A stretch of DNA of 64,000 nucleotides from Cephalotus follicularis. Lineage: Eukaryota > Streptophyta > Magnoliopsida > Oxalidales > Cephalotaceae. The translations under genes were made by a program, and so were the position numbers. This document shows, in pieces, positions 538-60,223 of the stretch. Within the stretch, counting starts at the first letter, position 1. Each line of letters opens with the position of its first letter. The stretch lies in the NCBI GenBank assembly GCA_001972305.1, contig BDDD01000717.1, forward strand, positions 270,701 through 334,700. The letters run 5' to 3'. Under the pieces are notes generated by a model. That model searched no databases and was not told the DNA's origin. It saw only the letters and a program-made list of their open reading frames with translations.

Positions 538-666
538 CAGTCGACTGCCACAGGGAGGAAGTCGACTGCCTGGTTTATGAAGGGGCAGCCGACTGTCACA
601 GGGGAGAAGTCGACTGCCTGATGCGTGTTGTGGACAGTCGACTGGCCAATACCTCCAGTCGACTGG
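538..666 (+). repeat. Palindrome array 1 of Gyp1 LTR
   Basis: Six copies of CAGTCGACTG or one-base variants (AAGTCGACTG, CAGCCGACTG). Distances between successive cores are 21, 27, 21, 28 and 21 bp. It lies about 220-350 bp upstream of a TATA-like motif at 888-895. Confidence 0.85.
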
Positions 667-887
667 ATCGGTATAGAACAGGTGTATGTGCATGCATGTT
701 AGACTGAATCAATAGGGCATTGCATGAAGGGGCAGGTGTCATGCGTGTCAGGGACTGCCAGAGCATGCAAGATAGAATGCTTGCATGTTCTCTGCAACCT
801 GCAAAACAAAATAGAAAAGAGAGAAAGGTGAGAAAAGAGATGCAGTGATGAGAGAGGCTAAGTAAATGAACTCTGGCGAATTCAAGG

Positions 888-895
888 CTTATATC
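888..895 (+). promoter_or_regulatory. Putative TATA box of Gyp1 LTR
   Basis: CTTATATC occurs at the same relative place as CTTATATA in the Gyp4 LTR (minus strand, 44824-44832) and TTATATC at 52851 in the solo family A LTR. Conserved position is the main support; no transcript evidence is available. Confidence 0.45.
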
Positions 896-1671
896 AACTG
901 TTGAGTTGTGAGATGAGTGTTAGAAACACTGAATATTGAGGAGAGTTGCTGGATATTATTGAGAGCTTGCATTGGAAGGATTTTGGAGAACTCAAAGAAG
1001 GAACCTTGAAGCTTTGGTCTCTTGGTAAGTTCTCAATCCGAATTCTCTGTTGTTATGATATGATAATGTAACTAGGAGAATGTTGAATACCTTCTGTTAA
1101 CATAATTAAATATAACAGATTCTAGAATTGAAATGGAAATTGTAAATGGATCAAGTGAAAATGATGACTATAACCTATAGATTGGATTATAATTGATGTT
1201 AAGGTCAGGATATGCTTACTGGTTTCCTAAATGTAAATACGCATCTTCTGTCAACACACTTAAGATCAATGAATCCGAGTTTGAATAATAGTTGACATAG
1301 AGTTCAAAGGAAGTTGTAAAATGGGAGTTTAGGACTTGATGGATTGGTAATAAACTACTGTTGAAGTAGTAATCGTATCTGATAATTAGAAACCTACTGG
1401 TACTGATGCATGTGTCTGTAAACATGCATGCATAGATTGAACTTGCTGCAATTGAAGGATTGTTGGTGAAAAGGCTTTGGAACACAAAGAGAAAGATCAA
1501 TTACAATTGATCTTGGGATAGCGATTTAAGGTAGGGGTAATGATATGTTATGGAAGATATAGTATGCATATCGTGTATGTCTATTTTCTGCATGTTTACA
1601 TGTGTGGCAATTGATTGGAAATTGAACTTGGATTGCTTGACCTGCTACTACCTGCATTTTCTGAGCAGAAG

Positions 1672-1784
1672 CAGTCGACTGTTCTTCATGGCAGTCGACT
1701 TCTCAACCTATCCAGTCGACTGCCAAGGCAAAGCAGTCGACTACTTAACCAAGGCAGTCGGCTATTCTCTAAGGCAGCCGACTG
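1672..1784 (+). repeat. Palindrome array 2 of Gyp1 LTR
   Basis: Six GTCGAC-type cores with CAG/CTG flanks, spaced 20, 21, 21, 21 and 20 bp. The bases between cores vary, so this is not a simple tandem repeat. It lies downstream of the presumed start of transcription, unlike array 1. Confidence 0.85.
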
Positions 1785-3086
1785 TTCTGGGCAGATTACT
1801 GATATAAGTCCTGTTAAGGCCTCAATTTGGAATGTAATTAACTTGACATTCATATGGATGATTGGAACAGTCTATACTGGCCTCATATTCAATTACATTT
1901 CAAGATTTAAACAATATACGCAATTCTTGTGAAAGTTGCATATGAATGACTATGAAATGCTATTGCCTTGTAATTCCTTGAATTACTACTGCTTTCGATT
2001 ATTGTTACTGTATATGCTACCTCATATTAGTATATACGGTTTTTGGTGATATTAACACCATTACCACTGATGTTTCAAGATTGAAACCAACTATGGGCTA
2101 TGTACCCAAAATTATGATATTAACTATCATTTCAAATGAAAGACTAATGCTAAATGAACTACTGATTTTCCTCCTACATGAGAGGTACCTACTGTTTTGT
2201 TTCCTCATCTGGAAACCACTACTGAATTGATGTCGTTTTCCTCACATGAGACGCACGATAAATAGATTGTTATATGTTTCTAAAGAAACAACCCTTATAT
2301 TGCACATTAGTGATATATGTAATATTACTATTGAAATGCTTGAATTGTTTGTCTATGTTTATTGCCGTAGTCGAGTGATGGAGGATATCACGGACTACGG
2401 AAGTGATCCTGGGTGCCAGGAGTTGGCCAGAGTATCACCCAAATGTCTGCCTTGCAGAACTTACTGTTAAACTACCCGCCAACGCCGGTAGTAAATGTTA
2501 CCTGTTCTGTCAACCTCGATGCATAGGGTGATAGTTAGGTGGTGCGCAGTTGGTGCTAGGAGTTAGCGAAATGTGACACCCAAACCACTGTATGAATTGA
2601 TTGTACCATTGTTCGGTATGCTTGCATTGTAATGTCCATGGCCACTTGGCATGGTTGCTTATTATTGGAATACTAAATGTTGTTTTCATATAAACTGTCA
2701 TATATATTGCATCCATATATTCCTTAGCATGCATTATCTTCCTACTTAGCCAAGTGAGGACAACGGCTAACCCCTACAATTACAGATTGAGCAAGGACGT
2801 TCGGAGCTTGCTGTTGAAGCTTTGGGGTTATGTTGTTGTATTGAATGTAATGAACGGATCATACCTCGTTTATGTTGTATTTCCTTGTGTTTAAGGATAA
2901 TATTTGACTTATACCCGCACGTAGTATGGGATGCGTGTGGATGACTTGTATTTATATTCCAGCTTATTGACTGCTTCCGCATATTATTTATGAACTGTTG
3001 AATGAAATGCTGGAGTATTATGTTTAATTCTGATATCACCATATATGCTTGTCTTAATGGTATGGAATGAGTAACGGGGTGTGACA

Positions 3087-4470
3087 ATTCATGTGCAACA
3101 ATCACAATGAGTGCATACTTGTTTAGTTTCTGAAATGTAATTGTATATAAGGCCAGGATTGATTGTTCTAATCATCCATATGGAGGCCAAGTTAATTACA
3201 TTTAAACTGAGGCCTAAACAGAACCTATATCAGAATTGTAACCCAGGACAGTCGGTTGTTCTCAAGAACAGTCGGCTGTTTTGATTAAGTAGTCGACTGT
3301 TTTCTCTTAACAGTCGACTGGATAGATTGAGTAGTCGACTGCCATGAAGAACAGTAGACTGCTTTGCCAAGAAAATGCAGGTAGTAGCAGGTTGTATATT
3401 TCAATGCGTAATACAAAACCAATAAGTGCATGCAATCAAGCAGAAAATAACCATACATGATATGCATACTCATATCTTCCAAAATATGTCATTACCCCTA
3501 CCTTAAACGCTATCCCGAGATCAATTGGGATTGATCTCTCTCTTTGAGTTTCCAAGGCTCTTTCACCAACTTAGCCCTCCAATCTCAGTAGAAATGATCT
3601 GTATAATGCATGTTTGAAGGTTCAGTCATTTAGTTAGCGAGTTTAACTAATTATCCAGCTACAATTGTTGTTCTAACAGTAGCTTATCAAGAGTTCATTA
3701 AGTCTCTCTTTCCCATTATTAAACAACTTCTCTCCACTATTCAATTCTACTTCTAGTAATTACCACGCTTTCATGTTACAGAAGGTAGGTATAGAGGTGA
3801 TTAGAACACATATACTTATTAACAACCATAACAACGTTAAGGGATTCGGATTAGTGACTTACCAGGAGAATCAAAGTTGCCCAAGTCTATTTGAACTCTC
3901 CAATCCTCAATGCAAGCTTTCACAATTCTTCAGCAATTCTCCTCTTCTCTCAGTGCTTTCTAACACTCACACTCTAATCTAACAGTTGATATAAAGGCTT
4001 AGGAGCCTTAGAATTCGCCAGATTCCCATTAACCCAGCCTTCTTTTTTCTCTCTCTCACATGTTCACTCCTCTCTCATTCTTTCTATCTTTTTCTCACTA
4101 CTCTGCTGTGATTGCAGGTTGCAGGTCTGTAAAGTACATGCAAGGCACTTCTTTTGCATGTGATGGCAGCTGCAGGCTTCGCATAACACCTGTCCATCAT
4201 GCCTTGCCTCTGCCCTGTCTCATATGCATGCACACCATTCCAGTCGACTGTCTTTAACAGGCAGTCGACTGTCACCCCATGCATCAGGCAGTCGACTGTT
4301 ACCCTGTGACAGTCGGCTGTCGATGGCTGCTTTTGGTTATTTTAGGTCCATTTGCTCAATTAAATTAACAACCACAATCCGTATAATAATTGGACAATTA
4401 ATCTCAATTAAAATGTATATTTTATTTAAAATTGGAGCAATATACATTAATTGAAATTGCGATTATTACA
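3087..4470 (-). mobile_element. Family A LTR, truncated, minus strand
   Basis: Reads TGTAATAATCGCAATTTC from 4470 leftwards and aligns with 368-1920 of the Gyp1 LTR in reverse orientation, including a match at 3093-3130. It stops where the Gyp1 LTR ends, as expected if Gyp1 inserted here. Palindrome arrays lie at 4241-4319 (spacing 21, 26, 21) and 3249-3361, the same offsets as in Gyp1. There is no polypurine tract or pol at its upstream side, only another LTR fragment. Confidence 0.8.
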
Positions 4471-5883
4471 TAAACAACATCTAATATAAACAATTTATCT
4501 CTTAACAGTCGACTTTCCCTAAGAATAGTCGGGTGTTTACATTGAGCAATCGACTGTTTGTCCTTAACAGTTGGCTGTTTACATTGAGCAGTCGACTGTT
4601 TATCCTTAACAGTCGGCTGTTTACATTAAGCAGTAGACTGTTAGGCTCAACAGTGGACTGTTTTGCCTAGAAAAACGACAGGCAGTAGTTTAACAGAATA
4701 GATTATGCATGTTCACATTCTAATTCCAACCAATTAATAGCATGCAATCATATAGCAAATATCCATACATGATATACATACTATATCTTCAAGAACATGT
4801 CAATACCCCTACCTCAATCGCTATCCCATAATCAAATTGGATTGATTCTTCTCTTTGTGTTCCAACTTCAACTCAACACCAACAATCCAAAAATTTAATG
4901 CTATAGGTGCATGTTGACAGGCATAAAGAATGGAAATCAGTAACTATATATGGTTGACTAACTACCATACCAGTACTTGAATCAAACCAACAATTTACCA
5001 GAGAGATCCTAAGCCGTAACTCACTTTGAATTCCAAGACTCTTATACCAGCTCAACTCCAATTCTAGCACTCCAGCAATTAAACTATGTGTGCATCTTAA
5101 CAGGAGATATACGTAGTATACAATCAGTACATATATACCTATTGAACGATTATAACACATTTGTAATCATAACAGAAGCTTACCTCTCAATTTCAAGCTT
5201 CTAACACACATGGAACACTTTGGCTCCATTATGCAAAGTCTAGAATCACCAGCAAGATTCTCCTCTTTACTCAGTGTTCTAACACTCAAATCAAGCTCTC
5301 AACAGCTGATATAGAAGGTTTAAATGCTTAGGAATTAGTCAAATTCCATTAACTTCAATCCCAACATTTTCCTTTCTCTCTCTCACATGCACATTTCCTT
5401 TCTCATTCCAATTTCTGTTTTGCAGGTTGCAGGTCTGCAGATGGGATAGTGCACATGCAAGACACCACTCTTGCATGTTACACAGCTGGTGGCATGCATC
5501 AGTCCTGCATGACACATCCAGGACACTTGCCATCAACTGCCACTGTCCTGTTTCACACGCCATGCACAAACACCTATCTGAGCTAGACCAGTCGACTGTC
5601 TTTAACCGGCAGTCGACTATCCACTTATGGCAGACTAGTCGATTGTTACCCTGTGACAGTCGACTGTCCTTCCATAACCAACCAGTCGACTATTACCCTG
5701 TGATAGTCGGCTGTTAGGCGCTGATTCTGGTTCCTTAAGTTTATTTAAGGACCCCTCGATTTAATTCAATTCTAAACCAACCACGTACACATTATTCAAG
5801 TAATTGGACACTAAACCACAATATAATGTATATTTTATTCAACATTGTACAATATACATTAATTAAAAATTACGGGTATTACA
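4471..5883 (-). mobile_element. Family A LTR fragment, minus strand
   Basis: Begins TGTAATACCCGTAATT at 5883 on the minus strand and matches the upstream half of the neighbouring family A LTRs. Arrays lie at 5589-5713 and 4506-4660. It is cut on its downstream side by the LTR at 3087-4470 and abuts a copia LTR at 5884. Confidence 0.8.
4506..4660 (-). repeat. Regular 21-bp palindrome array
   Basis: Eight cores (GTCGAC and decayed forms such as GTTGGC and GTAGAC) at spacings 20, 21, 21, 21, 21, 21 and 20 bp. Spacers alternate between two types, a TTTACATTGAG-like one and a TTTGTCCTTAA-like one. This suggests growth by duplication of a 42-bp pair. Confidence 0.85.
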
Positions 5884-8052: not shown

Positions 8053-8233
8053 AAGCGTTGACACTTTCAGTTAAAGCGTTGTCGCTTTGTTGAATTTTAA
8101 ATTTTGAGCCCTAACTTCAGTGTCAAGCACTGACTCTTTTAATTCAAGCGTTGGCGCTTTGCACATCTTGCAAATTTCTAATTCTAAGCACAGTGTTAAG
8201 CGTTGAAGCTTACATTCTGGGCGTCGGCACTTT
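8053..8233 (-). repeat. Internal palindrome array between RNase H and ORF3
   Basis: Imperfect GCGTTGAC/GCGTCGGC-type motifs with AAG...CTT flanks occur in three pairs. Within each pair the centres are 21 bp apart (8053-8089, 8126-8161, 8200-8233). The motif class matches the Cop1 LTR array, but the site is inside the element. Confidence 0.7.
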
Positions 8234-8344
8234 GTTCTGTTTTTCTGCCGATATATCGATAACGCAAATGAATGAATGCACATGATGCAACAATTGACAT
8301 ACAGGCATATCAAGCAAAAACATACAAGCATAAAATCATATTAA

Positions 8345-9783: not shown

Positions 9784-11850
9784 GTTATTGTAACACCCCC
9801 GATTCAGAACCGGGATCATTCCTGATTCGGGATCGGTGTGTCACACAAAACTGAACTAAAACATACCAAAGATCTTAATCTTAATCATCATCAATACGTG
9901 GTGGTTCTAAAAATCTGAATACATGTATCATCATGGAACATAAACTGAATCTGAAACATAATCTAAAAACTTTGCATAAACCAAAATCACAATACTGTTT
10001 AGATAACTGGCCTATACACGACCATAACACTACTAAGAACATAACCGGATCAAACTCCTAGATGATCCTCTGATATAGGGTAACTCTCTCATCACACTTG
10101 CCCATGCTGCCTCTGAAAACCTGCCGCATGGAAACAAAAACGCGACTGAGCAAACCTCAGTACGAATATAGAATCATAAAACAGTTTATGAACAGTTTAT
10201 GAAACAAATCAGTTACAAAACAACATAATTACGAATCAAAACAGATACGAATCAAAACAGAACGGGTTACGAACAAAACATTACAAAACATAACTGTATC
10301 CGAAACAAAGCAGTTTACAAAACGAAATAGTATCCGAAACAGAACAATATCATGCACAATACAATATCTGAAACAAACCCGATACGATACAAAACATTTT
10401 ACGAAACGAAACACTTTACGAAACAGGAAAGAACAATTTACGGAACAAAAGAAAGCAGTTTCTGAACAGTACGAAACAAACAGATTACGGAACAAAACAA
10501 AACAGTAAACGATTAATGATAATTTGAAAGCAGTAAGATTTCAAAAGTTAACTCAAGACATAAATCTTAAACAATATATCAGTTTAAACGTTCTTTGAAG
10601 TCACATATGAATTTTCATAAAAACCAAATCCATAACTTTCAAAACGTATGACAAACTTTTCAAAACATAAGTTCCATACTGAGCCACATAACATATCGCA
10701 TATCGAAACACATATAGCAAGGGAGTAGATAATTCTACATTGCCAAATAGAATTGCAGTGTACGACACTACACGTACAATTCCCATATCATAACATATCC
10801 CAAATCATATAACTAGGATCTATCCATACACCTCTATCACAAATCCTATCCAAGGATATCCCAGAGAGACGCCGTAAACTAATCACACCGTTACGGAAGG
10901 TGTCATGCCCCTGTGTCAGGCCCACAGCATGCCTATGGCACACCCCATAGGTGGGTACAAAAACTCAGTATTTAACCATTTCAAAACTTTGATTTCATCA
11001 AAATCAATTAAAACACATAGAAAGGTTTCCCAAAATATAATCATAAATCGTTCTCAAACGATATAGTTTCACATAACGTATACTTTCATAATCCAAAGGC
11101 AACTCTTTTATTTTCACAATAAAGAGACATTGGCATAGCATTTCGTAAACATAACACAGCTGAATTCATTAAGAAAGAAAAATATTCATTTCCGTAAGAT
11201 ATCAACTGACTTATTTCAAAGCATACGAAATATACTTAAAACATGTTCATAAAACTGAATTTATTTCAAATAATTCGGATGTCCAAAAATGATTTTATTT
11301 CGCTAAAATCGAAGAGAGTAGCAAAGAGCGGAATACTCGTACATCTCATTAAAACAAAACAGATTCAATTCAGATAAAACCGAATGATAACCAAAACGAA
11401 GAATCCGTGTTTTATTCGCAAAATAAAACTGAATTTATACTCTAATAAAATCGATAAGAGTGTATCAAGAAACGAAGACACGTACTTCATTTACTAAACA
11501 AAACCGAATTTATCTCAACAATACCGAAGGAGATATCAAGGAAAGGGAATCCGTGCTTTATTCATAAAAGTAAATTTAACTTTTTACTCTAATAAAAACA
11601 ATAGAAGGGTATCAAGGAATAAAAAATCCGTACTTTATTCTTTAAAGCAAAATAACCCTCATTTTAGTAAAACCAACAAGGGAGGGTGTTGGCCTTTGCC
11701 ACCCCAATTAAATGTTTACCATGAGTTATTTTGATGATTAACAAACATAAACTACTTGTATGCATGATTCTTCAAGTTATAACTTCACATACTCACTTGA
11801 TTCTTTGTCCAAAGTTGTGCCAAGAGTGTTTATGCAGATACAGGCAATTC

Positions 11851-12336
11851 CAGCCGACTGGAGAGCAATCCAGTCGACTGCCAAGGCTAGGAGTCGACTT
11901 CCAAAGTCATGTAGTCGACTGCATCTTCAACCAAAACCCAGAATCTGCAGAAGTAGCACACCAGTCGACTGACACAGGGGTCCAGTCGACTGCCAGGCAA
12001 TTTTAGTCGACTGCAACAGGGCATCAGTCGACTGCCATGGGTACAATTTCAGGCAGAAGCTTCTGTAACATTTTACACTCAATCCAGCCGACTGAAGCAG
12101 GGGATCAGTCGACTGCCAGGGATTCCAGCTGACTGCCATCAATTGTGCAAAATCATACAGTAGGTTTTGTAACTTCTTATTTAGCCTCAACAGCCGACTG
12201 AAGCAGGGCATCAGTCGACTGCCGAGCACACCAGTCGACTGCCTACAGGATCCAGCTGACTGCCGCACTACCAACGGCTATATTCAAATATACGCACCAT
12301 CAAACCAGCTGACTGCCGTCCAAATCCAGCCGACTG
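11851..12336 (+). repeat. CAGTCGACTG palindrome array in copia LTR
   Basis: About 17 cores (GTCGAC, GCCGAC, GCTGAC) in four groups. Within groups the core spacing is 20-21 bp throughout. The motif is the same as in gypsy family A LTRs although the LTRs themselves are unrelated. Confidence 0.85.
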
Positions 12337-12380
12337 GATTTGTATCAGACAGTTAAAAATAGATCCATTGGAGGCTCAAC

Positions 12381-12386
12381 TATAAG
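12381..12386 (+). promoter_or_regulatory. Putative TATA box of CopG LTR
   Basis: CAACTATAAGAGG lies about 45 bp after the last palindrome of the array. No other TATA-like element is closer. Confidence 0.5.
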
Positions 12387-12938
12387 AGGAAAATTGGACC
12401 TCTTACGCAAGTGATCAAGCTTTCAAGTTACACATTCTCTCAAGCTATCTCAAGAACAATATCAAGCATTCACACAATCAAAAGAGATCAATCCAAAGCA
12501 ATCTTTTACATTTACAAAGCTTTGTACTTTACATTACATACACACTTGTAGCTTTGTTTAGAGTTGTGCTTCACTGTAAACAAATTCGCTACGAATTTTT
12601 AAACACTCAAACTACTACTTTCACACATCCAAGAGAGGTTGTCTCTTGTATTGCTCGGTTGTAGCAAAGTGTAATTCGCTTGGTTGGAGCGAAAGTTTGT
12701 TGGAGCTCGGTTGGAGTTCCAAGCCCGGATTGGGGCATACCTAGTGAATACTCAAGGGGAGGCCTTGGGGAGTGGACGTAGGCGGTTTGCCGAACCACTA
12801 TATATCCGTTTGCAATCTCTAAACCCTACACTCTTTACTTTCCGCATTGTGTGTTTGAGTAATTAATTTTTATTGGTGGTATATTTGCTAGATAAATTTT
12901 TATTAGTCTATTCACCCCCCCTCTAGACTTCCAACAAT

Positions 12939-32696: not shown

Positions 32697-34065
32697 GAAC
32701 CAGTTGACTGTTCATACATTTAATAGAACATATCTGCAGAAGGTTGTGTAGTCGACTGCCAAGAGAGGGCAGCTGAGTGGATAAGGTAGGCAGCCAACTG
32801 TCAAGAGGAGACAACCGACTGTTAGAGGAGGCAGCCGAATGCCAGGACTAGGACAGACAGCTATCAAAGGAAAACAGCCGACTGTGAAGAGGAGACAGCC
32901 GACTGGTTAGGGACTGACCCGCACTTTGAGCATATCTTTGCATTGCATTTTGATATGAAATGAATTGATGATTGGAATATGGATGATTCTAAAGTGTTTT
33001 ATTCATTTTAGAAATGTGTACATGATTTTATATGAATCATTATTTGATATGAAAATATATATTTTGATAAATGTATGTTTTCAAGGATTGAAACATGGTT
33101 TCAAAGATGTAATACATTTTGATATAAATGTATTATTTCCAGTACTTTATAAACTACTTGGAAACGATTTGAATTGAATTGATTTGTTGATTGTGATTGA
33201 TGTCGTACTGGCTGGGGTGATGAAGTGTCACCGATGGCTGGTGGCAGGGATGTTCTCCTAGGTGTCAGGTGATGGCCAGGGACGCCCAAGTACAATGTTA
33301 CCTGAGACATAGTGCGAGTAACACGGGTTACCATGATTGCTGAACACAGAGTGCGAGCATCATGAGTTGATTGATTTGACTTGCTTCGTGACCCAGGAGT
33401 CGTGGGCCGGAGTAAGAGTACGATGTCAGGGCCAGGAGATGGCGGCGCTCTTCGTACCGTTGATTGGATTGATTTTGTCCTTTGAGACATGATTGATGAT
33501 TTGATGGTTGTAGCCACTTGGCATGGTTGCACCTATTGGCATATATATATATATACATATGTATATGTACGTGTGGTGATATATTATATATTGCATCATG
33601 AGTGCATTCATTTCATGACATTCATTATCACTGACCTTGAATTTCACTTATGATTTAGCCGAGTGAGGACAAAGGCTAACCCCCTACTATTGCAGATTGA
33701 TGCAGTAATGTGGATGTCGACGGTACGCGGCGAATCTGTTGGGAGATGGAGTTTTATTGCTTAAATAAATGTTTTAACAATGTATTGAGACCCATATTAT
33801 TTTGAATTAATGTATTAATGGTGTAGATCGACTTTTGATCACGCCCCGTTTATGGGCAATCGACGATGGCTCAATTATGTTAATGTTGGAATCATGTGGT
33901 ATGGGATGCATGATTCGGTTTGTTTATCTAGCTTATTATTAAATGCTTCCGCAAATAAGAATGGAATTGGAGTTTTTAATTTTATCATATTTGTATAAGC
34001 TGGATAACATTATATTGATTGCCTTTACCGCTTTAATGCTATCTTATCAGGAACAGGGTGTGACA
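32697..34065 (+). mobile_element. Gyp2 5' LTR, start missing
   Basis: Ends CAGGGTGTGACA before the primer site. It holds one CAGTCGACTG-type array (32701-32905; spacings mostly 20-21 bp, many cores decayed). The stretch 33190-33700 resembles the second half of family A LTRs. By comparison about 1.3 kb of the upstream part is lost. Confidence 0.75.
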
Positions 34066-36199: not shown

Positions 36200-37450
36200 T
36201 GTAACACCCCGCGCACGCAGGGCGGACACGTGGCATTACTCTCAATCCAATAACAATACAATGGTCGGGACTAGCAGTATAAAAATATGGAAAAACTTAT
36301 AACTTTGCAATACATATCATTAAGCGGAAGATACAATACAACTAGCCATCCTTACAGTGCAATACAATAGAATACAATCCTTTACAATACCAATCTTTTA
36401 CAATACACTTATCAACTCTTCAATACAGTATTACAATGAGCTCTATCAGATCCAGACGATCCCCTTGGTCAATAGAGTCTTCAATCCTTTGGTCCGCTAC
36501 TACCCGCAGCTCTACTTATGTCGCACACAAAGGTACAACACAGCTCCACCCCGAAGGATGGGGTTAGCCACACTGGCTAAGTAGAAACCTCATGCAGCAT
36601 GTACAATGTACAATGTGCAATATCGGTGATGATCTATGCAATAACAATGTGCGGTGTACAATATCAATGCATGACATGGCAAATGCATATGTACAGTTGG
36701 CGATCAGACTACCCGTATGACAATGGCCCGTAACAGAGCAAACGGACATGATATACAACAATCAATCAATGGCAGACACTCAATGGTGGCGTATAAAACA
36801 CCCAATCAATCAATCAATATCCTATAGAGCATGCGACCCCGGGTCAATACAATGTCAATCAGTAAGCAGTGATCAATCCCACAGAAGGTAGTCCTTTAAA
36901 AAGGGTAGGAGATCTATCTACTGTTCTCAAATTGATCTGGTCTGGAACTCATAGATCTTCCAGCCTATGATCGGGTCAATACAGTCTCGATGAGCTACAA
37001 CTGAGGGAGCTACTGATACCGTTAGGGAGCTACGGCCTCAAGGGAGCATCAATAGACAGTCAATCTGTACCGCTCGTTAGTGGGTCAATGCAGTACAGTA
37101 AATGAAACAATCGACGAAATAGGTGGACAGAGTCAACAACCTAACATGCTGACACGAATCATAAGGTCGCTCTATAGGATCCATACAATTCAATCAATTA
37201 AGTCTGTACAATATCATTACAATGTTGATAAGCAAAGTCAATGATTGACGGTATCTAATGGAGAATTGGGAATGTGCGTCCAACTTACCGACTTAGACTC
37301 ACATCACTCATGACTCAAGCAACCAATCAATCAGTACAATCATTAAAACCGTTTTCAAACACTTGAACACCTTAAGTGAGGGTCCAGTCAAGTGGCAATG
37401 TGAAAAGAAGTTGAAAACCAGCTTTAAACAGTTAAAAAACTCCACTCAGC

Positions 37451-37915
37451 CCGGAAGCCGTCGATGTCCTTGGTAAAAGACATCGATGCGTATCAGGGCA
37501 TGCCTTTGAAAACGGTAGAAGGACATCAATGTCTTTGAAAGACATCGGCGTCTTTCTCAGTTGGCCAAAGACGTCAATGTCCTTGGACAAAGACGTCGAC
37601 GCGTTTCAATAAAAATGGCTTGGGAATGCGCATCGATGTCCAGTGTCGATGCCTTTCCTAGGAAAAGACATCTCAAGGCAAAGACGTCGATGTCGATGTC
37701 CTTGGACAAAGACGTCGATGCGTTTCAATAAAAATGGCCTGGGAATGCGCATCGATGTCCCGCATCGATGCCTTTTCTGGGAAAAGACATGTCAAGGCAA
37801 AGACGTCGATGTCTTTCATAGACATCGATGTCTTTGCCGCGAAATCAAGGAGGTTGCATCCCAAAGCGAAAGACATCGATGTCCATGGGCAAGGGGATCG
37901 ATGTCTTTGCTGGGA
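37451..37915 (-). repeat. GACATCGATGTC / GACGTCGAC palindrome array
   Basis: Many AAAGACATCGATGTCTTT-type sites and variants (GACGTCGATGTC, GCATCGATGTCC). Spacings of about 19, 22 and 29 bp recur. It includes a 119-bp tandem duplication absent from the other LTR of the same element. Confidence 0.85.
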
Positions 37916-38438
37916 ATGGCCGATTTTGTGCAGAAAACCAGAAATTTTCAAGCCAAAATACAATTTAAAGCCATTCTTTGAAAACCAAGGTTTAAAATCA
38001 ATCATTTGAGGTTAGTAAAACTTGTTACAACCTTCAAAATTCAGTTTCAATCTTTCTAGATCAATTATAGCAAGGAAAATCAATGAAAACCCTAGTTTCA
38101 TAATTCATTTCAATTCAATCAGTCAACCACTCAATCAATCATGCAATTCAATCAATCATGCATTTAAGCAATAGGCAATTCCAGTAGGGAAGTCCTACCT
38201 TTAATGAAGCTTCAAAAGTTGAGCTTCCAATCAAACAATCGGTTGGGAAACTTGAAGAATCCACTGCAATCTTGCTCCAGCCAAGGAAAGGTGAGACTTC
38301 AATTGTTGTTTGCTGTTGGAGATGCAATCCGGAGCTGCTATGGAGGAGGAGGCTGCCGGCTGGGAGAGAGAGAGAGGAGGAGAAGGATAGAGAGAGGGAG
38401 AAGAATGAGTGAAATGAGAGGAATGGCTAAGGAATTGG

Positions 38439-38446
38439 CTTATATA
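38439..38446 (-). promoter_or_regulatory. TATA box of Gyp3 3' LTR
   Basis: The minus strand reads GCTATATAAGCC about 170 bp from the LTR start; the same occurs at 60049-60056. Here the palindrome array is downstream of the TATA box. Confidence 0.6.
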
Positions 38447-38614
38447 GCCGATTCCGCCAACTCTCCGAAACTCAGCCCAAAAATCCCGACTATACATGAA
38501 TTTAACCAATACAATAACAATAGGTATAGGAATACCTCAATTCAATACAATTCGATACGGTCCAATGTGGTACAGTATGTATGAACAGTACAAAAGGGAA
38601 TTCGAGTCGTCACA

Positions 38615-42896: not shown

Positions 42897-45389
42897 TGTC
42901 ACACCCCATTTTCCATTCCATTACGACAAGCATATATGGTGATATCAGGTAAAAAAATAAATAATCCAGCATTAAAATTTTAACAATTTCATAATACCAT
43001 AGCGGAAGCATTCCATTTGATGGATCATAAAATCATCCGCACGCAGCCCATACTACGTGCTTATACAGTACCAACAATTATCCTTTTACATACGGAAAAG
43101 TAAAACAACAACAGCGGAGTGTGATGGTTCAATGCAGTACAAAACATAAAGATAACAACCTTAACAGAAATAGAAGCTCTCCAAAAGCTTCAACAGCACT
43201 TCCCGAACGTCTTTACTTAATCTAAAATTGTAGGGGGTTAGCCGTTATCCTCACTTGGCTAAGTAGGAAATAATGAATGATAATTGAATATATAATTCTA
43301 AACATGCATGATAGTTATTTTAGATAAAACATATATATAAGTATTTCAATATATATATGCAATCATGCCAAGTGGCCATAGACAATATAATGCAGGAATA
43401 CCGCACAAGAGTACAATCAATCAATACAGTGGTTCGGGTGTCACATGTCGCTAACTCCTAGCACCAACTGTGCACCACCTAACTATCACCCTACACTGTG
43501 AAGATGATAGATCAGGTCAATTACTACCGGCATTCGCGGCCAGTTTAACAATCAAGATCTGCATTGTAGACAGTTTGGGTCGATACTCTAGCCAACTCCT
43601 GGCACATAGGACCACCTCCGTAGCCAGTTACATCTGCCATCACTCGACTAACGACAATAGCATAGACAATCAATCCAATCAATTCAATTACAATATTACA
43701 TATATCTATAATATGCAATATAACGGTAGTTTCATTTTTAGAAAACATAACAATTCAGTCAGTGGTTCTCATGGAGAACTAAACGATACAACACCTCTTG
43801 TAGAGGAAAATACCAATATGTATAACAATAAGATTTTCTGTCTGAAATCAGTTGTTAAAAAAAAAAACAGTATTTATGCTTAAAGGATTAAGTTGGTATA
43901 ATCCTTGAAAATTTGTATGAACAACAGTAATTACTTTAAATAACAGTAATGGCAGCTAACAATATAGCAGTTCAAGGATATTCACAACCACAACCAATTG
44001 AATCAATCAATTAAGCACTTTCCATAATTACTGTTCTAAAGCGTCGACAATTTCTATTTAAGTGTCGAATGTTGTCGATTAAGCGTCGACACCGTACGCA
44101 TTATCAAAGCGTAAAGCGTGAACTTTCTAACCTTTAAAATGTGATTTTTACACACCAAGGCATCGACTGTCTGAACCTAAGCGTCGACGCTTCTGGCGTT
44201 CTGACGAAATCCAAGAACAACAACAAAACAGAGCATGCATAAATTCATACTAATCCTAGTCCAAATCAACATGCAATCATATACCAACCATCACTACACA
44301 TCATACATGTTATATGTTCAAAAACATCTCAAAACCCCTACCTTAAAAGCAATCCCGAAATCAAATCGAACTTATTTCTCTCTCTATGTCCACATGTTCT
44401 TCACTCTCCTTCAATCTTCCAAAATTGCCGAATTAATCTACACAATTGCATGTTTACAGGTTTTAGATACCAATCCAGTAAGTTTAACTAGTTATCTAAC
44501 CATGATAACATCAAGGAATTGAACCCAAAGCTTATAATCAATCTCCTAAGTTCCATTTCTTTTGAACAAATTCAAGTTTTAATTCCCAGGTTTTCTCCCT
44601 GATCGTTTCTCAACAATGGATAAGTATATCTAATTTTATCCTGTTTCCATAATTGTTAACCATAACAACAACGCGGATTTTGGATCAGTGGCTTACCAGG
44701 AAGAATCAAGCTTAGTTTCCTCTTCAAGTCCACTAGCTCCACATGCAAGGCATTAGAGGTTTCTCAGCAAGAATTTCCTCTCCTCTTAGTGCTTCTAGCA
44801 CTTACTCTTACTCACAAACACGGGTATATAAGGCTAATTGCTTGGAGATTTTTGGCCTAAATTAACTCCAACCAGTAGCATTTCTTTCTCTCTCTCACAT
44901 GCATGTCTTCATTCATTTGTTCTTCCCTGTTATTTTCTGGCATGTTGTAGGTTGCTGGTTTAGATCACATGCAAGGCTCCACCCTTGCATGTTACCCAGC
45001 TGGTGGAGGCTTCTAGTATGCATCGACACGTTTATAGGACACTTGTCCTTAGCCCACCATTTTAACACTGCAGTTTCATGCCAATTGACAAGTGTTCTGC
45101 GCCAGAACACGTCTAAAGCATCGCCGGTTTGAACGTCGGCGTCGACGCTTTTGTTCGTCATAACACAGCCCTCAACTGCACGCCTTGTACACATGTCTAT
45201 GCTCAAAGAGTCAACGGTGCGGCGTTAGACGTCGACGATTTAGCACCAGAATTTACTTCTTTAATTTTTGCCTAAGAATTATCCCAATTTCATTCTATTC
45301 AAATGATATCCCAACATATAAACTCAAGAAAATGCATACTTTATTCATCATGAGTACAATATATATGAATTGAAATTACAGATATTACA
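42897..45389 (-). mobile_element. Gyp4 3' LTR (family A, GCGTCGACGC version)
   Basis: The minus strand starts TGTAATATCTG and ends GGGGTGTGACA. It is collinear with 54887-57250 with scattered mismatches. Arrays of GCGTCGAC motifs lie at 45117-45243 and 44039-44190, at the same LTR offsets as the CAGTCGACTG arrays of Gyp1. TATA-like CTTATATA is at 44824-44832 (minus). Confidence 0.9.
44039..44190 (-). repeat. GCGTCGACGC array in Gyp4 3' LTR
   Basis: Cores GTCGAC, GTCGAA, GTCGAC, then ATCGAC and GTCGAC; spacings within groups are exactly 21 bp. The matching array in the 5' LTR lies at 56030-56185. Confidence 0.8.
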
Positions 45390-47837: not shown

Positions 47838-48175
47838 TTAAGCGCTGACAGTTGTAGTTAAAGCGTCGACGCTTGGGTAGTAACGGTCGATGCTTAGACC
47901 CCTTCTATCTGCGCTTTAAACCAGTGCAATGGTAAATTGGACAAAGCCCTCACACAGTCGACGCTTAGAGGTAAAGAGTCGACGCTTTGGGCAACGGTCG
48001 ACGCTCTAAATGTAAAAGTCGACGCTTCGAGATCAAGTATTGAAGATTGACTTGGACGAAGACTTAAAAGCGGCGACGCTTTGTAAGAAATCGTCAGCGC
48101 TTTAGTCGGGATAGAGGTAAAAAACTCAGGTAAAGGCTATGACCGTCGACGCTTAGAGAGAAACCGTCGACGCTT
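47838..48175 (+). repeat. GCGTCGACGCTT array upstream of TATA box
   Basis: At least eight cores with GCTT or GCTTT flanks. Spacings within groups are 21, 21, 19, 21 and 21 bp. The array stops about 60 bp before the TATA box. Confidence 0.85.
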
Positions 48176-50619: not shown

Positions 50620-50699
50620 ATAGCCTTCACATCCTTGGTTGAGATACTTTTGTGCTCTAGTATACGAAATGATCGGAGCAGAAACATTCTTCCCTCCGA

Positions 50700-52242: not shown

Positions 52243-54732
52243 TGTAATAACCACAATTTCAATTCATGTATTTTGTACCCAACGATGAATAAAATATACT
52301 TTTTGAGATGTTATGTTGGTTACCTTTTTTAATAGAACGAAGTTGGAATAAAATTCTAAGATGGAAAACTAAAGAAATAGTTTCTGGTGCCAATCGCCGA
52401 TGCCTAACTCCTTACCTTCGACGCTCTAAGCCCTGACACGTGTACAAATTCACAGTTGAAGGCTAAGTTAAGGCGCCAAATCATCGACCTTTAAACGCCA
52501 GCATCGACGCTTAAAGGCGTATAAGCGTCGACGCCCACGATAAAACCGACGATGCTTTAGACGTGTTCTAGCGCAAAGACATATGTCAGTTGGAATGGAA
52601 TGACAGGGTTTGAATGATGGTAACATTGGCATGTGTCCATAGACGTGTTGGCCATGCAAAGAGAGGCTTCACCAGCTGTTGCTAAGGCACACTAAGGAGT
52701 CTTGCATGTATTCCTTTCACCCGTAACCTGTAAAACACAACAGAAAAGGGTAAATAGAAAGCACAAAAGAGAGGATGCATGCATGTGAGAGAGAGAAGTG
52801 CACATTAAAAGTTAAACCAACTAAGGAATGAGAGACACGGAATTGAGCACTTATATCAGCTGATACTTGAGATATTTGAGTGTTGAAAAACACTGAGGAA
52901 GAGGAGGACTATATGGACAGTTGCTGGAAGTGCTAGAGATTACATGTTAATGTTTGAAGAGTTCAAGTGGTTGAAGCTTTGATTCCAGGTAAGTTACAAT
53001 TCGAAGCTCACTTACTGTGGTTAAGATGGTTATGTAAACATGTTGATGTCAATGATATACCTACTGTTGAATATGCAAATAAGTAGTTGAATCGTAAAAG
53101 TTAATTGGAAAATGGAGAAGTGATTTAAATGGGATTAGAGGATTAGAAATTAATTATTAAGCTTCTGATTCAATTCCTTGATGTTGTCATGGTTAGATAA
53201 CTAGCTTAACATACTGGATTCGTATCCAAAACCTGTAAACATGCAATTATGTAGATTAATTCTGCAATTTTGAAAGATTGAAGGAGTGTGGAGAACTTTG
53301 GACATAGGGTGAGAAATCAATTTGATTTGATTTTGGGACTTCTTTAAAGGTAGGGGTTTTGACATGTTTTTGAACATATAACATGTATAATGTGTAGTGA
53401 TGGTCAATACTTGATTGCATGTTGAATTAGATTGAGTTTAGGTTGATTTTGTGAATCCCCTGTTTTAAAATTGCTCCTGGAATTCGTATGAATGCCCGAA
53501 GCGCCGACACTTACACAGAAACTGTCGACGCTTTGGTGCGGAAATGGCATATTAAGGCTTAGAATGTCGATGCTTGAGTTGTGTAGTGTCAACGCTTAGT
53601 CATAAACCGTCGACGCTTACATAGAAACTGTCAACGCTTTAGAACAGTAAATGTAGAAATGTGTAAACTGATCGATTGAATTGTTTGTGGTTACAATTAT
53701 CCTTGATCTGCTATATTGTAACTATTATTACTGTTAATTAATGAAATTACTACTGTTATATATACACATTCAAGGATTTTACCAACCTAATGCTTTAAGC
53801 ATAAATAATGATTTTTAACGGTTTTCTAATGGAAAATCTTATTGTCATACAAACTGTTATTTTTCCTCTTAATAGAGGCACTGTTACTGTTTAGTTCTCC
53901 CAAGAGAACCACCGACTGAACTGTTATGTTTTCTAAAAATGAAAACTACTATAATATTGCATATTATAGATATATGTAATATTGTTACTGAATTGATTGA
54001 ATTGATTGTCTATGCTATTGCCGTTAGTCGAGTGATAGGAGATATCACTAGCTATGGAGGTGGTCCCAGGTGCCAGGAGTTGGCTATAGTATCCACCCAA
54101 ACTGTCTGCAATGCAGAACTTGATTGTTTATCATCTTCGGAGTGTAGGGTGATAGATAGGTGGTGCACAGTTGGTGCTAGGAGTTAGGGACATGTGACAC
54201 CCAAACCACTGTACTGATTGATTGTATCCTTGTGCGGTATTCTTGCATTGCACTGTCTATGGCCACTTGGCATGATTGCGTATATATTGGAATACTATAT
54301 ATATATATATATATATCATTTAAACTGTCATGCATATTTACATTTATAGATTCAATTACATGCTTTATCTTCCTGCTTAGCCAAGTGAGGACAACGACTA
54401 ACCCCCCTACAATTTCAGATTAAGTGAAGGCATTCGGGGAGTTGCTGCTAAAGCTTGGAGAGTTTTTATCTACTTAAGGTTGTTATCCTTATGTTTTGTA
54501 TTTGTAATGAACGGTTCGCACTCCGTTGTTGTTTTACCTTTCCTTATGTATAAGGATAATTTGATGGATTGTATACGCACGTAGTGTGGGCTGCGTGCGG
54601 ATGACTTTGTAATCTAGTTTTAAATGCTTCCGCTTATATTGTTGAATTTTTGAATGAAATGCTGGATTATTTACTTATTCCTGATATCACCACATATGTT
54701 GTCTAAATATAATTGGAAGGCGGGGTGTGACA
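52243..54732 (+). mobile_element. Family A LTR (solo, GCGTCGACGC version) in Gyp4 gag
   Basis: TGTAATAACC...GGGGTGTGACA, 2490 bp, in reverse orientation to the closely related LTRs of its host Gyp4. Arrays lie at 52386-52560 and 53497-53641; TATA-like TTATATC is at 52851; a TA run is at 54292-54317. Flanks read TTCGT then CAG on the left and TTCGG on the right, so the TSD is imperfect. Confidence 0.85.
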
Positions 54733-54774
54733 TTCGGCTTTACGCCTTCCTCTTCTACCTCTTCGTAGGTCCAT
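54733..54774 (-). pseudogene. Gyp4 gag start
   Basis: The ATG at 54774 (minus) opens MDLRRGRRGRRKAE, an Arg-rich start like those of Gyp2 and Gyp3 gag. The solo LTR follows immediately. The leader from 54775 to 54870 has no other feature. Confidence 0.7.
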
Positions 54775-54843
54775 TCGGTTTCCTATATGGAATGACGTAA
54801 TCATTAGGAAACAATTCACCTAATTTCTGAGAAACTTATCCCA

Positions 54844-54902
54844 GCTTGTCACACCCCGTTTTAAAAATAAGCTCTGATACCATGCTTGTCACACCCCGTT
54901 TT
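54844..54902 (-). repeat. LTR-end duplication around Gyp4 primer-binding site
   Basis: The 19-base string GCTTGTCACACCCCGTTTT occurs at 54844-54862 and again at 54884-54902, the second being the true LTR end. The primer-binding site (GCTCTGATACCA, 54871-54882, complement TGGTATCAGAGC) lies between them. Confidence 0.85.
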
Positions 54903-57250
54903 CCATTCCATTAAGACAAGCATTTATGGTGATATCAGGTAAAAAATAAATAATCCAGCATTAAAATTTAAACAATTTCATAATACCATAGCTGAAGCAT
55001 TCCATTTTTCGGATCATAAAATCATCCGCACGCAGCCCATATTACATGCTTATACAGTACCAACAATTATCCTTTTACATACGGAAAAGTAAAACAACAA
55101 CAACGGAGTGTGATCGTTCATTACAGTACAAAACATAAAGATAACAACCTTAACAGAAATAGAAGCTCTCCAAAAGCTTCAACAGCACTTCCCGAATGTC
55201 TTCACTTAATCTGAAATTGTAGGGGGTTAGCCGTTGTCCTCACTTGTCTAAGTAGGAAATAATGCATGATAATTGAATATATAATTGTAAACATGCGTGA
55301 CAGTTATTTTAGATAAAACAATTATATAAGTATTTCAATACATATATGCAATCATGCCAAGTGGCCATAGACAATACAATGCAGGAATACTGCACAAGGG
55401 TACAATCAATCAATACAGTGGTTTGGGTGTCACATGTCGCTAACTCCTAGCACCAACTGTGCACCACCTATCTATCACCCTACACTTGGAAGATGATGGA
55501 TCAGGTCAATTACTACCGGCATTAGCGGGCAATTTAACAATCAAGATCTGCATTGCAGACAGTTTGGGTAGATACTCTAGCCAACTCCTGGCACATAGGA
55601 CCACCTCCGTAGCCAGTGACATCTGCCATCACTCGACTAACGGAAATAGCATAGACAATCAATCTAATCAATTCAATGACAATATTACATATATCTATAA
55701 TATGCAATATAACGGTAGTTTTCATTTTTAGAAAACATAACAATTCAGTCAGTGGTTCTCATGGAGAACTAAACGATACAGTACCTCTTGTAGAGGAAAA
55801 TAGCAATATGTATAACAATAAGATTTTCTGTCTGACATCCGTTGTTAAAAAAAATCAGTATTTATGCTTATAGCATTAAGTTGGTATAATCCTTAAAAAT
55901 TTGTATGAACAGTAGTACTTGCTTTAAATAACAGTAATGGCAGCTAACAATATAGCAGTTCAAGGATATTCATAATCACAACCAATTCAATCAATCAATT
56001 AAGCACTTTCCACAATTACTGTTCTAAGGCGTCGACTGTTTCTATTTAAGCGTCGACTGTTGTCGATTAAGCGTCGACACCGGACACACTATCAAAGCGT
56101 AAAGCGTTGACTTTCTAAGCTTTAAAATGCGATTTTTACACACCAAAACGTCAACTGTCTGAACCTAAGCGTCGGCGCTTCTGGCGTTTTGACGAATTCC
56201 AGGAACAACAACAAAACAGAGCATGCATAAATTCATACTAATCCTAGTCCAAATCAACATGCAATCATATACCAACCATCACTACACATCATACATGTTA
56301 TATGTTCAAAAATATGTCAAAACCCCTACCTTAAAAGCAATCCCGAAACCAAATCGAATTTATTTCTCTCTCTATGTCCAAATGTTCTTCGCTCTCCTTC
56401 AATCTTCCAAAATTGCCGAATTAATCTACACAATTTTATGTTTACAGGTTTTAGATACCAATCCAGTAAGTTTAACTAGTTAGCTAACCATGATAACATC
56501 AAGGAATTGAACTCAAAGCTTATAATCAATCTCCTAAGTTCCATTTCTTTTGAACAACTTAACAAATTCAAGTTTTAATTCCCAGGTTTTCTCCCTGATC
56601 GTTTGTCAACAATGGATAAGTATATCTAATTTTAGCCTGTTTCCATAATTGTTAACCATAACAACAATGCGGAATTCGGATTAGTGGCTTACCAGGAAGA
56701 ATCAAGCTAAGTTTCCTCTTCAAGTCCACTAGCTCCACATGCAAGGCATTAGAGCTTTCTCAGCAAGAATTTCCTCTCCTCTTAGTGTTTCTAGCACTTA
56801 GTCTTACTCACAAACACAGGTATATAAGGCTAATTGCTTGGAGATTTTCGGCCTAAATTAACTCCAACCAGTAGCATTTCTTTCTCTCTCTCACACATGC
56901 ATGTCTTCATTCATTTGTTCTTCCCTTTTATTTTCTGGCATGTTGCAGGTTTAGATCACATGCAAGGCTCCACCCTTGCATATTACCCAGCTGGTGGAGG
57001 CTTCTGGTATGCATTGACACCTTTATAGGACACTTGTCCTTAGCCCACCATTTTAACGCTGCAGTTTCATGCCAATTGACAAGTGTTATGCGCCAGAACA
57101 AGTCTAAAGCGTCGCCAGTTTGAACGTGGGCGTCGACGCTTTTGTTAGCCATAACACAGCCCTCAACTGCATGCCTTGTACACATGTCTATGCTGAAAGA
57201 GTCGATGGTGCGGCGTTAGGCGTCGACGGTTTAGCACCAGAATTTACTTC
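54887..57250 (-). mobile_element. Gyp4 5' LTR, outer end truncated
   Basis: Collinear with 42897-45250. Arrays at 56030-56185 and 57108-57235. It stops at 57250, where a different LTR begins; the first part corresponding to 45250-45389 is missing. Confidence 0.88.
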
Positions 57251-57654
57251 TGTAACGCCCGGTATTTTCCTGAATGTAATATTCCATTTATGATGTAATC
57301 ATTGAACTTGAATTAATGAGAATGTTGAGTTACAAACCCTAGTTATGGTCTTGGAATTGGAATGTGTATGTTAAGCTTAAAACGGCAACGTTCTGGGAGA
57401 AAGACATCGACGTCTTTTGGAAAGACGTCGACTCCTTTGTGAGCTAGGGCTCACGTGAATGCATGGACATGCACGTCGACTTTAGGGGAAAGCATCGACA
57501 CCTCCTTACCAACTGGAAAAGACATCGACGTCTAAAGGAAGACGTCGACGTCTTTGTCACGAATGGACAGCACGTTCTTCGTCGACAAAACATCATGCAT
57601 GGGGGAATTGTTTAAAAGGCTACCTAACGCCTTTTCTGAGTGTTTTATTTCAAG
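57251..57654 (+). mobile_element. Fragment of another gypsy LTR with GACGTCGAC palindromes
   Basis: Starts TGTAACGCCCGG like other gypsy LTRs, then has AAAGACATCGACGTC-type sites at 57402-57560. After about 400 bp it runs into Gyp3 gag; the exact right end is uncertain. No other copy is present in the window. Confidence 0.6.
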
Positions 57655-57784
57655 GATCATACTCTGGAAAAACGTTACCAGGAGCCGGTTCATTAACAAC
57701 TGGAGCAGGGGCAAGAGCAGGAGCAGGGGTAGGAGCAGGAGCATTCCTTCTGCCTCGTCGACCACGCCTTCCCCTATTGTTCAT
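57655..57784 (-). pseudogene. Gyp3 gag start
   Basis: The ATG at 57784 (minus) gives MNNRGRRGRRGRRNAPAP followed by an Ala/Pro repeat (PAPALAPAP). The reading stops near 57655 at the junction with the LTR fragment. It lies 130 bp downstream of the primer-binding site. Confidence 0.75.
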
Positions 57785-57914
57785 TTCTATAAGAGTCAAC
57801 AATGGGATGATTAGATACAATCACTTTCAATTTCAATATCAATCTCTATGCATATCCATTCAGTCAATCTCAATCAACGCATTAATATACTTAACTAGCA
57901 GGCCAACCAATGTC

Positions 57915-57926
57915 TCTGATACCATT
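57915..57926 (-). other. Primer-binding site of Gyp3
   Basis: The minus strand reads TGGTATCAGAG, next to the LTR end at 57928; complementary to initiator tRNA-Met. Confidence 0.88.
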
Positions 57927-57927
57927 C

Positions 57928-60223
57928 TGTAACACCCCGCGCACACAGGGCGGACACGTGGCATTACTCTCAATCCAATAACAATACAATGGTCGGGACT
58001 AGTAATATAAAAATACGGAAAAACTTAAAACTTTGCAATACATATCATTAAGCGGAAGATACAATACAACTATCCATCCTTACAGTACAATACAATACAA
58101 TACGATCCTTTACAATACCAATCTTTTACAATACACTTATCAACTCTTCAATACAGTATTACAATGAGCTCTGTCAGATCCAGATGATCCCCTCGGTCGA
58201 TAGAGTCTTCAATCCTTTGGTCCGCTGCTACCCCCTGCCCTACCTATGTCGCACAGAAAGGTACAACATAGCCCCACCCTGAAGGATGGGGTTAGCCACA
58301 CTCGCTAAGCAGAAACCTCATGCAGCATGTACGCATGTACAATGTGCAATATCAGTGACGATCTATGCAATAACAATGTGTGGTGTACAATATCAATGCA
58401 TGACATGATAAATGCATATGTACAGTTGGCGATCAGACTACCCGAATGACAATGGCCCATAACAGAGCATCGGATAGGATCAATAATAATCAATCAATGG
58501 CAGACACTCAATGGTGGCGTATAAAACCCCCAATCAATCAATCAATATCCTATAGAGCATGCGACCCCGGGTCAATACAATGTCAATTAGTTAGCAGTGA
58601 TCAATCCCACGGAAGGTAGTCCTTCAAAAAGGGTGGGAGATCTATCTATGGTTCTTAGATTGATCAGGTCTAGAACTCATAGATCTTCCAGCCTATGGCT
58701 GGGTCAATACAGTGTCAATGAGCTATAACAAAGGGAGGTAATGATACCATTAGGGAGCTACGGCCTCAAGGGAGCATCAATCGACAATCAATCAGTACCG
58801 CTCGTCAGTGGGTCAATACAGTACAGTAAATGAAACGATCGACGAAATAGGTGGACAGAGTCAACAACCTAACATGCCGACATGAATCATAAGGTCGCTC
58901 TATAGGATCCATACAATTCAATCAATCAAGTCAGTACAATATCATTACAATGTTGATAAGCAAAGTCAATGATTGATGGTATCTAATGGAGAGTTGGGAA
59001 TGTGCGTCCAACTTACTGACTTAGACTCACATCACTCATGACTCAAGCAATCAATCAATCAGTACAATCATTAAAACCATTTTCAAACACTTGAACACCT
59101 CAAGTGAGGCTCCGGTCAAGTGGCAATGTGAAAAGAAGTTAAAAACCAGCTTTAAACAGTTAAAAAACTCCACTCGGCCCGGAAGGCATCGATGTCCTTG
59201 GTAAAAGACATCGATGCGTATTAGGGCATGCCTTGGATAACGGTAGAAGGACATCGATGTCTTTGAAAGACATCGATGTCTTTCAAAGTTGGCCGAAGAC
59301 GTCGATGTCCTTGGACAAAGACGTCAACTTGTTTCAATAAAAATGGCCTGGGAATGCGCATTGATATCCCGCGTTGATGCCTTTTCTGGGAAAAGACATC
59401 TCAAGGCAAAGACGTCGATGTCTTTCAAAGACATCGATGTCATTGCTGCGAAATCTAGGAGGTTGCATCCCAAAGCGAAAGACATCAATGTCCATGGGCA
59501 AGGGGATCGATGTCTTTGCTGGGAATGGCTGATTTTGTGCAGAAAACCTGCAATTTTCAAGCTAAAATACAATCTAAAGCCATTTTTTGAAAACCAAGGT
59601 TTAAAATCAATCATTTAAGGTTAATAAAACTTGTTACAACCTTCAAAATTCAGTTTCAATCTTCCTAGATCAATTAGAGTAAGGAAAATCAATGAAAACC
59701 CTAGTTTTCCAATTCCTTTCAATTCAATCATTCAATCAATCAATCAATCATGCAATTCAATCAATCATGCATTTAAGCAATAGGCAATTCAAGTAGGGAA
59801 GTCCTACCTTTAATGACGCTTCAAAAGTTGAGTTTCCAATCAATCAATCGGTTGGGAAACTTGAAGAATCCACTACAATCTTTCTCCAACCAAGGAAAGG
59901 TGAGACTTCAATTGTTCTTTGCTATTGGAGATGCAATCCGGAGCGGCTATGGAGGAGGAGGCTGCCGGTTGGGAGAGAGAGAGGAGGAGGAGAATGATAT
60001 AGGGAGGGAGAATAATGAGTGAAATGAGAGGAATGGCTAAGGAATTGGCTTATATAGCCGATTCCGCCAACTCTCCAAAACTCAGCCCAAAAATCCCGAC
60101 TATACATGCATTTAACCAATACCATAACAACAGGTATAGGAATACCTCAATTCAATACAATTCGACACGGTCCAATACGGTACAGTATGCATGAACAGTA
60201 TAAAAGGGAATTCGGATCGTCAC
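57928..60223 (-). mobile_element. Gyp3 5' LTR, 2296 bp
   Basis: Collinear with 36200-38614 but 119 bp shorter, the size of the array duplication in the other copy. Palindrome array at 59188-59520, TATA box at 60049-60056 (minus). Confidence 0.9.

Follow-up and report, generated by a model that had tools for sequence, protein, structure and literature searches.

Palindromes repeated within the long terminal repeats (LTRs) of retrotransposons have been described before. In Sirevirus copia elements, a single palindrome is repeated many times per LTR in a cluster upstream of the TATA box, and the motif varies between elements. Two of the 13 repeated motifs are TCGA-centered (Vitis, CGGTCGACCG; Tnd-1, ACAATCGATTGT), 12 of the 13 have a CGG-CCG core, and the motifs are called Sirevirus-specific and absent from classic retrotransposons (excerpts of PMC2829016). 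The palindrome-rich, fast-evolving regulatory part of maize Sirevirus LTRs, with the motif CACCGGACNNNGTCCGGTG, is viewed as RNA structure and small-RNA target, and one maize palindrome is common to Copia and Helitron elements (excerpts of PMC10760457 and PMC5311732). Here, we analyze a 64,000-nucleotide stretch of the Cephalotus follicularis genome (hereafter the window; contig BDDD01000717.1, our C717, positions 270,701 to 334,700), which is a heap of nested LTR retrotransposons. An earlier reading of its letters (the sequence-only reading) had pointed to the Sirevirus precedent and proposed that TCGA-centered dyads lie 20 to 21 bp apart in LTRs of unrelated families. We find such dyads, with a preference for a step of two helical turns, in LTRs of both the gypsy and the copia superfamily, and we find that they change slowly between lineages and fast after insertion.

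Three dyads recur: A (CAGTCGACTG), B (GCGTCGACGC), and C (ACATCGATGT). When one mismatch is allowed, A sites number 50 in the window, B sites 18, and C sites 19, against means of 0.75, 0.2, and 2.25 in 20 dinucleotide shuffles. At the same threshold, 26 same-class pairs lie 20 to 21 bp apart, and none do in the 20 shuffles. Half-A/half-B hybrid sites also exist, for example GCGTCGACTG at 56029 and 56050. The excess reaches far beyond the window, as the sequence-only reading had expected. Across the 1.577 Gb and 9,746 contigs of this one genome, which made up our plant survey, exact A-A pairs at 15 to 25 bp number 38,284 versus 137 for the pattern read backwards; the corresponding counts at 10 to 40 bp are 4,236 versus 7 for B-B and 1,433 versus 1 for C-C. 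Exact B and C sites stand 10 to 40 bp apart at 423 (forward) and 398 (reverse) places, exact A and B sites at 4. We also screened all 256 8-bp palindromes in 264 kb, consisting of the window and 20 stretches of 10 kb (bases 100001 to 110000 of contigs C2 to C760, not randomly drawn), of which 12 held at least one exact dyad site. Pairs at 20 to 21 bp were formed by AGTCGACT (25), CGTCGACG (4), ATATATAT (2), and TATATATA (1), and by none of the other 252 palindromes. Besides TA repeats (3 pairs), only the A core AGTCGACT and the B core CGTCGACG recur at this distance. No A-A pairs at 19 to 22 bp were found in viral contigs. Among prokaryote genome contigs, exact CAGTCGACTG pairs at 19 to 22 bp occur in nine stretches (L031 to L039), three of them from one Myxococcales assembly.

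Distances between sites were taken from the first-listed pairs, whose copies are partly related. The 57 A pairs (15 to 25 bp allowed) fall at 21 bp (40), 20 bp (12), 19 bp (3), and 22 bp (2), with none at 15 to 18 or 23 to 25 bp. With 10 to 40 bp allowed, 39 of 50 B pairs lie at 19 to 21 bp, two at 22 bp, and nine at 23 to 40 bp; 38 of 50 C pairs lie at 19 to 22 bp, eight at 29 to 31 bp, two at 38 bp, and two at 12 to 13 bp. All three classes keep mainly to 19 to 22 bp, but class C is less simple than the sequence-only reading had it. Scoring spacers as distinct only when they differed at more than 35% of positions, we still observed 23 of 25 A pairs at 20 to 21 bp (P = 2 × 10−15 versus a uniform range) and 20 of 28 B pairs at 19 to 21 bp (P = 7 × 10−15). 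Mixed B-C pairs share the mode (51 of the 100 listed at 19 to 22 bp). The two-turn preference is thus independent of the spacer and largely independent of the dyad class.

The four arrays that the sequence-only reading had cited were recovered at, or within a few bases of, their coordinates. The array at 1672-1784 has sites at 1672, 1692, 1713, 1734, 1755, and 1775 (steps 20, 21, 21, 21, 20), that at 56030-56080 has sites at 56029, 56050, and 56071 (21, 21), and that at 48131-48175 is a pair at 48143 and 48164 (21 bp), both reading CCGTCGACGC. The steps 20, 21, 21, 21, 21, 21, 20 given for 4506-4660 (sites from 4506 to 4651) hold if the site at 4526, which has three mismatches, is included; without it, the array opens with a step of 41. 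The arrays and their carriers in the window are as follows (PBS, primer-binding site).

368..3086 (+): gypsy LTR v1, class A, TG...GGGGTGTGACA; a chromodomain-like tail and a purine-rich tract lie ahead of it
538..665: v1 array 1, A dyads, steps 21, 27, 21, 28, 21, with a TATA-like box farther downstream near 890
1672..1784: v1 array 2, A dyads, steps 20, 21, 21, 21, 20, lying past both the TATA-like box and GGTAAG near 1024
3087..4470 (-): gypsy LTR v3, truncated, class A; array 2 at 3249-3361, array 1 at 4241-4319
4471..5883 (-): gypsy LTR v2, truncated, class A; array 2 at 4506-4660, array 1 at 5589-5713
11687..12936 (+): copia LTR, class A, TGTTGG...TCCAACA, followed by the PBS TGGTATCAGAGC at 12939 and copia-type gag at 12991-14829
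11851..12336: copia LTR array; A dyads, 17 with at most two mismatches, in groups of 2 to 4 with steps of 20 to 21 bp
32701..32905: decayed A array, in a stretch closing with a gypsy-type LTR end and PBS (34070)
36200..38612 (-): class C, gypsy element ii, 3' LTR; TATA-like box near 38446, with the C dyads (about 37458-37904) on its downstream side
42897..45264 (-): class B, gypsy element i (inside element ii), 3' LTR with B-like dyads at 44041-45238
48143..48173: two B-like sites 21 bp apart within the interior of element i
52243..54732 (+): gypsy LTR vi, class B, inside element i and opposite in orientation to that element's own LTRs
54887..57255 (-): 5' LTR of gypsy element i; B-like dyads including 56029, 56050, 56071, 56169, 57130, and 57220; minus-strand PBS at 54882
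57928..60229 (-): 5' LTR of gypsy element ii, aligned at 93% to the 3' LTR; C dyads at about 59186-59513

Gypsy element ii (36200-60229) encloses gypsy element i (42897-57255), and the LTR pairs of each align at 93 to 94%. The chromodomain likeness beside v1 rests on the match of 158-442 to the end of an open reading frame (ORF) at 45431-46099. Three further A dyads at 71-143, just ahead of this chromodomain-like gypsy pol tail, lie outside any LTR identified. The B-like dyads at 47863-48173 sit between the reverse transcriptase (RT) and RNase H stretches of element i and probably belong to a nested LTR. A 98% direct repeat (12630-12945 and 14715-15030) flanks the copia-type gag, which is without pol; the arrangement suggests a copia copy that retains only gag and whose 3' LTR is truncated. 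Among the protein matches listed for the gag ORF at 12991-14829, the first eight have 70 to 88% identity (seven named Cephalotus follicularis) and the next nine 36 to 39%. The GGTAAG at 1024 of v1 recurs at equivalent places in v2, v3, i, and vi, about 130 bp past the TATA-like box, and lines up across all six LTR rows. It is a possible splice donor, in which case array 2 would lie in a leader intron. Degenerate tandem repeats similar to AACAGTTACGAAACAA, with periods of 17 to 26 bp, occupy 10191-10504.

Both superfamilies carry the arrays. Class A occurs in the gypsy LTRs v1 to v3, in L011 (array at 1756-1868, PBS at 3209, gypsy gag from 3570), and in L008, where the array lies downstream of gypsy pol in a putative LTR. 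Its copia carriers are the LTR at 11687-12936, L019, which is 85% like this LTR, and L001, where the array lies between stretches of copia gag. Allowing one mismatch, A sites number 13 in the copia LTR 11687-12936 and 11 in v1. Class C is carried by gypsy element ii and L017 and by copia L016, in which array, TATA-like box, PBS, and gag follow in that order. Class B is found in gypsy i and vi and, among copia, only in L010, beside copia RNase H, which is a probable copia LTR with less clean borders. The gypsy carriers encode gypsy RT, RNase H, and integrase domains. The same design is therefore present in copia and gypsy, as proposed; but the A and B arrays of the window gypsy LTRs occupy homologous positions, so the class changed within gypsy on a common scaffold and these arrays are not independent inventions. 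In a test of shared ancestry between the superfamilies, distinct spacers of the copia array show a weak excess of likeness to gypsy array 1, equaled by 15 of 500 shuffles, but none to gypsy array 2, equaled by 140 of 500. Copia arrays (window and L016) stop upstream of the TATA-like box, with boxes picked by pattern; the window array ends about 45 bp ahead of the box at 12381.

Dyads behave in opposite ways within and between insertions. Between the two LTRs of one insertion, they change about twice as fast as the rest (8/70 versus 116/2288, P = 0.028; 14/120 versus 141/2179, P = 0.037), which is expected for CpG sites when both LTRs evolve freely after insertion. Between A-type gypsy LTR lineages, they change 2.3 to 3.5 times more slowly than the rest (v1-v3: 9/100 versus 386/1227, P = 3 × 10−7; others: 24/130 versus 533/1241 and 17/110 versus 459/1162). 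The contrast between the pooled one-insertion pairs and the v1-v3 lineages is significant (P = 0.001). Fast change within insertions combined with slow change between lineages indicates that selection acted on dyads before insertion and not after. We extended the comparison to 34 arrays and 72 comparisons, leaving out two of overlapping DNA and two of one-insertion LTRs. Dyads diverged less than spacers in 68 of 68 comparisons, as the sequence-only reading had anticipated, and less than flanks in 51 of the 54 with enough flank, although rows share sequences and are not independent. For family copies, 40 of 6,635 candidates were scored, and the best-scoring 20 of the 39 other than the window copy were used. 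The steps 20, 21, 21, 21, 20 are kept in all 20. Private and shared variants among these copies number 20 and 3 in dyads versus 97 and 62 in flanks (P = 0.019), with 14 and 4 in spacers (P = 0.20).

We consider it fairly probable, from these sequence comparisons, that the arrays are cis-regulatory LTR elements for a dimeric host factor whose dimers would be in contact two turns apart. Each dyad is a predicted site for a symmetric DNA-binding protein, and neighboring dimers, two helical turns apart, would thus be able to touch. The factor would most likely be a host protein, or a small protein family with related specificities, because the class A dyad and its spacing are common to gypsy and copia and because the coding end adjoins the LTR in the three gypsy elements examined (i, ii, and beside v1). 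Tandem duplication would enlarge the arrays, while selection on the replicating lineage would hold dyad and distance and let spacers drift. The sequences show the dyads, their phasing, their presence in both superfamilies, and their slow change between lineages and fast change after insertion, whereas binding, dimer contact, host origin, and a role in expression are what we infer.

Several results weigh against this account. Listed A pairs in the 26- to 56-bp range (n = 57) fall at 27 to 28 bp (12), 40 to 43 bp (26), 48 to 50 bp (18), and 52 bp (1), and the 27- to 28-bp group is off phase. So is the 37-bp peak of mixed B-C pairs (42 of the 100 listed). Judging by the look of the spacers, each of these off-phase spacings comes mainly from one lineage. 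They are nonetheless common, so that the two-turn rule is valid inside blocks and not across a whole LTR. Strict helical phasing of all sites, which the sequence-only reading had placed on one face of the DNA, is ruled out by these spacings. Gap openings per 100 columns in spacers versus flanks (2.5/2.3, 2.1/2.7, and 1.3/1.7) show spacer indels about as frequent as flank indels and lend no support to a strict length constraint. Among the 20 closest copies, spacers (divergence 0.0225) are conserved like dyads (0.0206), with flanks at 0.051. Promoter placement is also uneven: with boxes picked by pattern, A-type gypsy LTRs have one array on each side of the TATA-like box, and element ii has its array downstream only. 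Finally, dyad sites were defined by their likeness to a consensus, which biases them to conserved sites; the one-insertion LTR pairs, handled alike, show the opposite sign and so serve as a control for this bias.

The spacing could instead be a memory of tandem duplication of a 21- or 42-bp unit, with dyads that may be functional at a distance that is not. Here 4527-4663 has a 42-bp period with 85% matches, and duplication therefore made at least part of the spacing, a further point against the dimeric-factor account; 1690-1783 has a 21-bp period with only 68% matches. Spacers alternate in the window at 4547-4651 and in L016 at 8127-8253, the copia array contains a 72% duplication at a shift of 102 to 106 bp, and spacer indels are no rarer than those in flanks. 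The copia array (11851-12336) was not called as a tandem repeat at score 30. The sequence-only reading held that spacer bases differ; many different spacers do carry the same dyad and distance, but an ACAGGG-like motif, chosen post hoc, occurs in 28 of 100 A spacers in both superfamilies (3.9% by chance), and 4527-4663 is partly a plain 42-bp repeat. The motif could be an additional site or a remnant of common ancestry, for which the spacer comparison with the gypsy arrays is weak. Because two-turn spacing recurs in three dyad classes, in mixed B-C pairs, and between spacers more than 35% different, and because class C has a separate small mode at 29 to 31 bp (8 of 50 listed), we regard duplication memory as an unlikely explanation of the whole.

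The arrays might also act as RNA, with transcript hairpins between neighboring palindromes serving packaging or small-RNA silencing, as proposed for maize Sireviruses, whose palindrome clusters collect small RNAs (excerpts of PMC10760457 and PMC5311732). Compared with shuffles, the arrays do fold much more strongly (z = −4.8 for 11840-12345 and −8.7 for 1665-1790), but any array of equal palindromes folds likewise, so that these scores do not separate the readings. Hairpins need no fixed 21-bp step, and the copia arrays lie upstream of the TATA-like box; action as RNA is improbable. Recognition by an element-encoded DNA-binding or anti-silencing protein, similar to VANC and acting in trans on several families, is more improbable again. 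VANC21 binds a nine-base motif that is dense in non-coding regions, and its targets evolve via tandem repeats (excerpts of PMC5735166). At homologous positions, related gypsy LTRs here likewise carry different dyad classes. Class A is, however, common to gypsy and copia, and pol and LTR adjoin too closely in i, in ii, and beside v1 to leave space for an additional gene (that side alone was searched, and no search for a VANC-like protein was made).

Beyond a dimeric host factor, a broader scheme can be drawn, which we advance tentatively and think more doubtful than not: one host regulator or related set would read a shared two-turn dyad code, gypsy and copia would have converged on or exchanged this code, and the arrays would be silencing-coupled switches. 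Among the 102 A sites that lie within arrays and have at most two changes, 89 retain the central CpG. Its retention in the replicating lineage despite fast decay after insertion raises the possibility that the factor may sense or evade CpG methylation. Recognition of the dyads by a DREB-like or WRKY-like protein is speculation on our part and is not claimed. Should a host factor bind the arrays, a single protein or small family may govern a large share of the retrotransposon load across two superfamilies in a large plant genome, and the arrays would be a ready probe for finding it. Decay within insertions set against conservation between lineages further offers a sequence-only view of selection on LTR regulatory sites in repeat-rich genomes.

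In the open-licence literature, we found no earlier report of two-turn phasing or of dyads in chromodomain gypsy LTRs, and none of CAGTCGACTG together with a retrotransposon. A search there for "helical turn" gave, among the matches listed, only designed bacterial proteins; GTCGAC was not found with CBF and, with DNA affinity purification sequencing (DAP-seq), only as a primer site. The measured two-turn preference and the same dyads in chromodomain gypsy LTRs therefore appear to be new. Among known systems, the VANC targets of VANDAL elements resemble these arrays as short, dense motifs in non-coding element DNA that evolve by tandem repeats and differ between relatives. They differ in belonging to DNA transposons, in having a non-palindromic motif in the same orientation, where the dyads here are palindromic, and in being bound by an element-encoded protein (excerpts of PMC5735166). 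For the maize palindromes, neither phasing nor sharing with gypsy is described in the excerpts of PMC10760457 and PMC5311732. The Sirevirus palindromes are the closest known relatives. At least eight palindrome copies clustered in an LTR, the Sirevirus criterion, are present both in the copia LTR 11687-12936 (17, at most two mismatches) and in gypsy v1 (11, at most one). Unlike most Sirevirus motifs, A, B, and C have no CGG-CCG core, a trait they share with Tnd-1; the excerpts of PMC2829016 contain no spacing rule, whereas a two-turn step was measured here; and chromodomain gypsy LTRs, outside the Sirevirus lineage, carry the dyads too.

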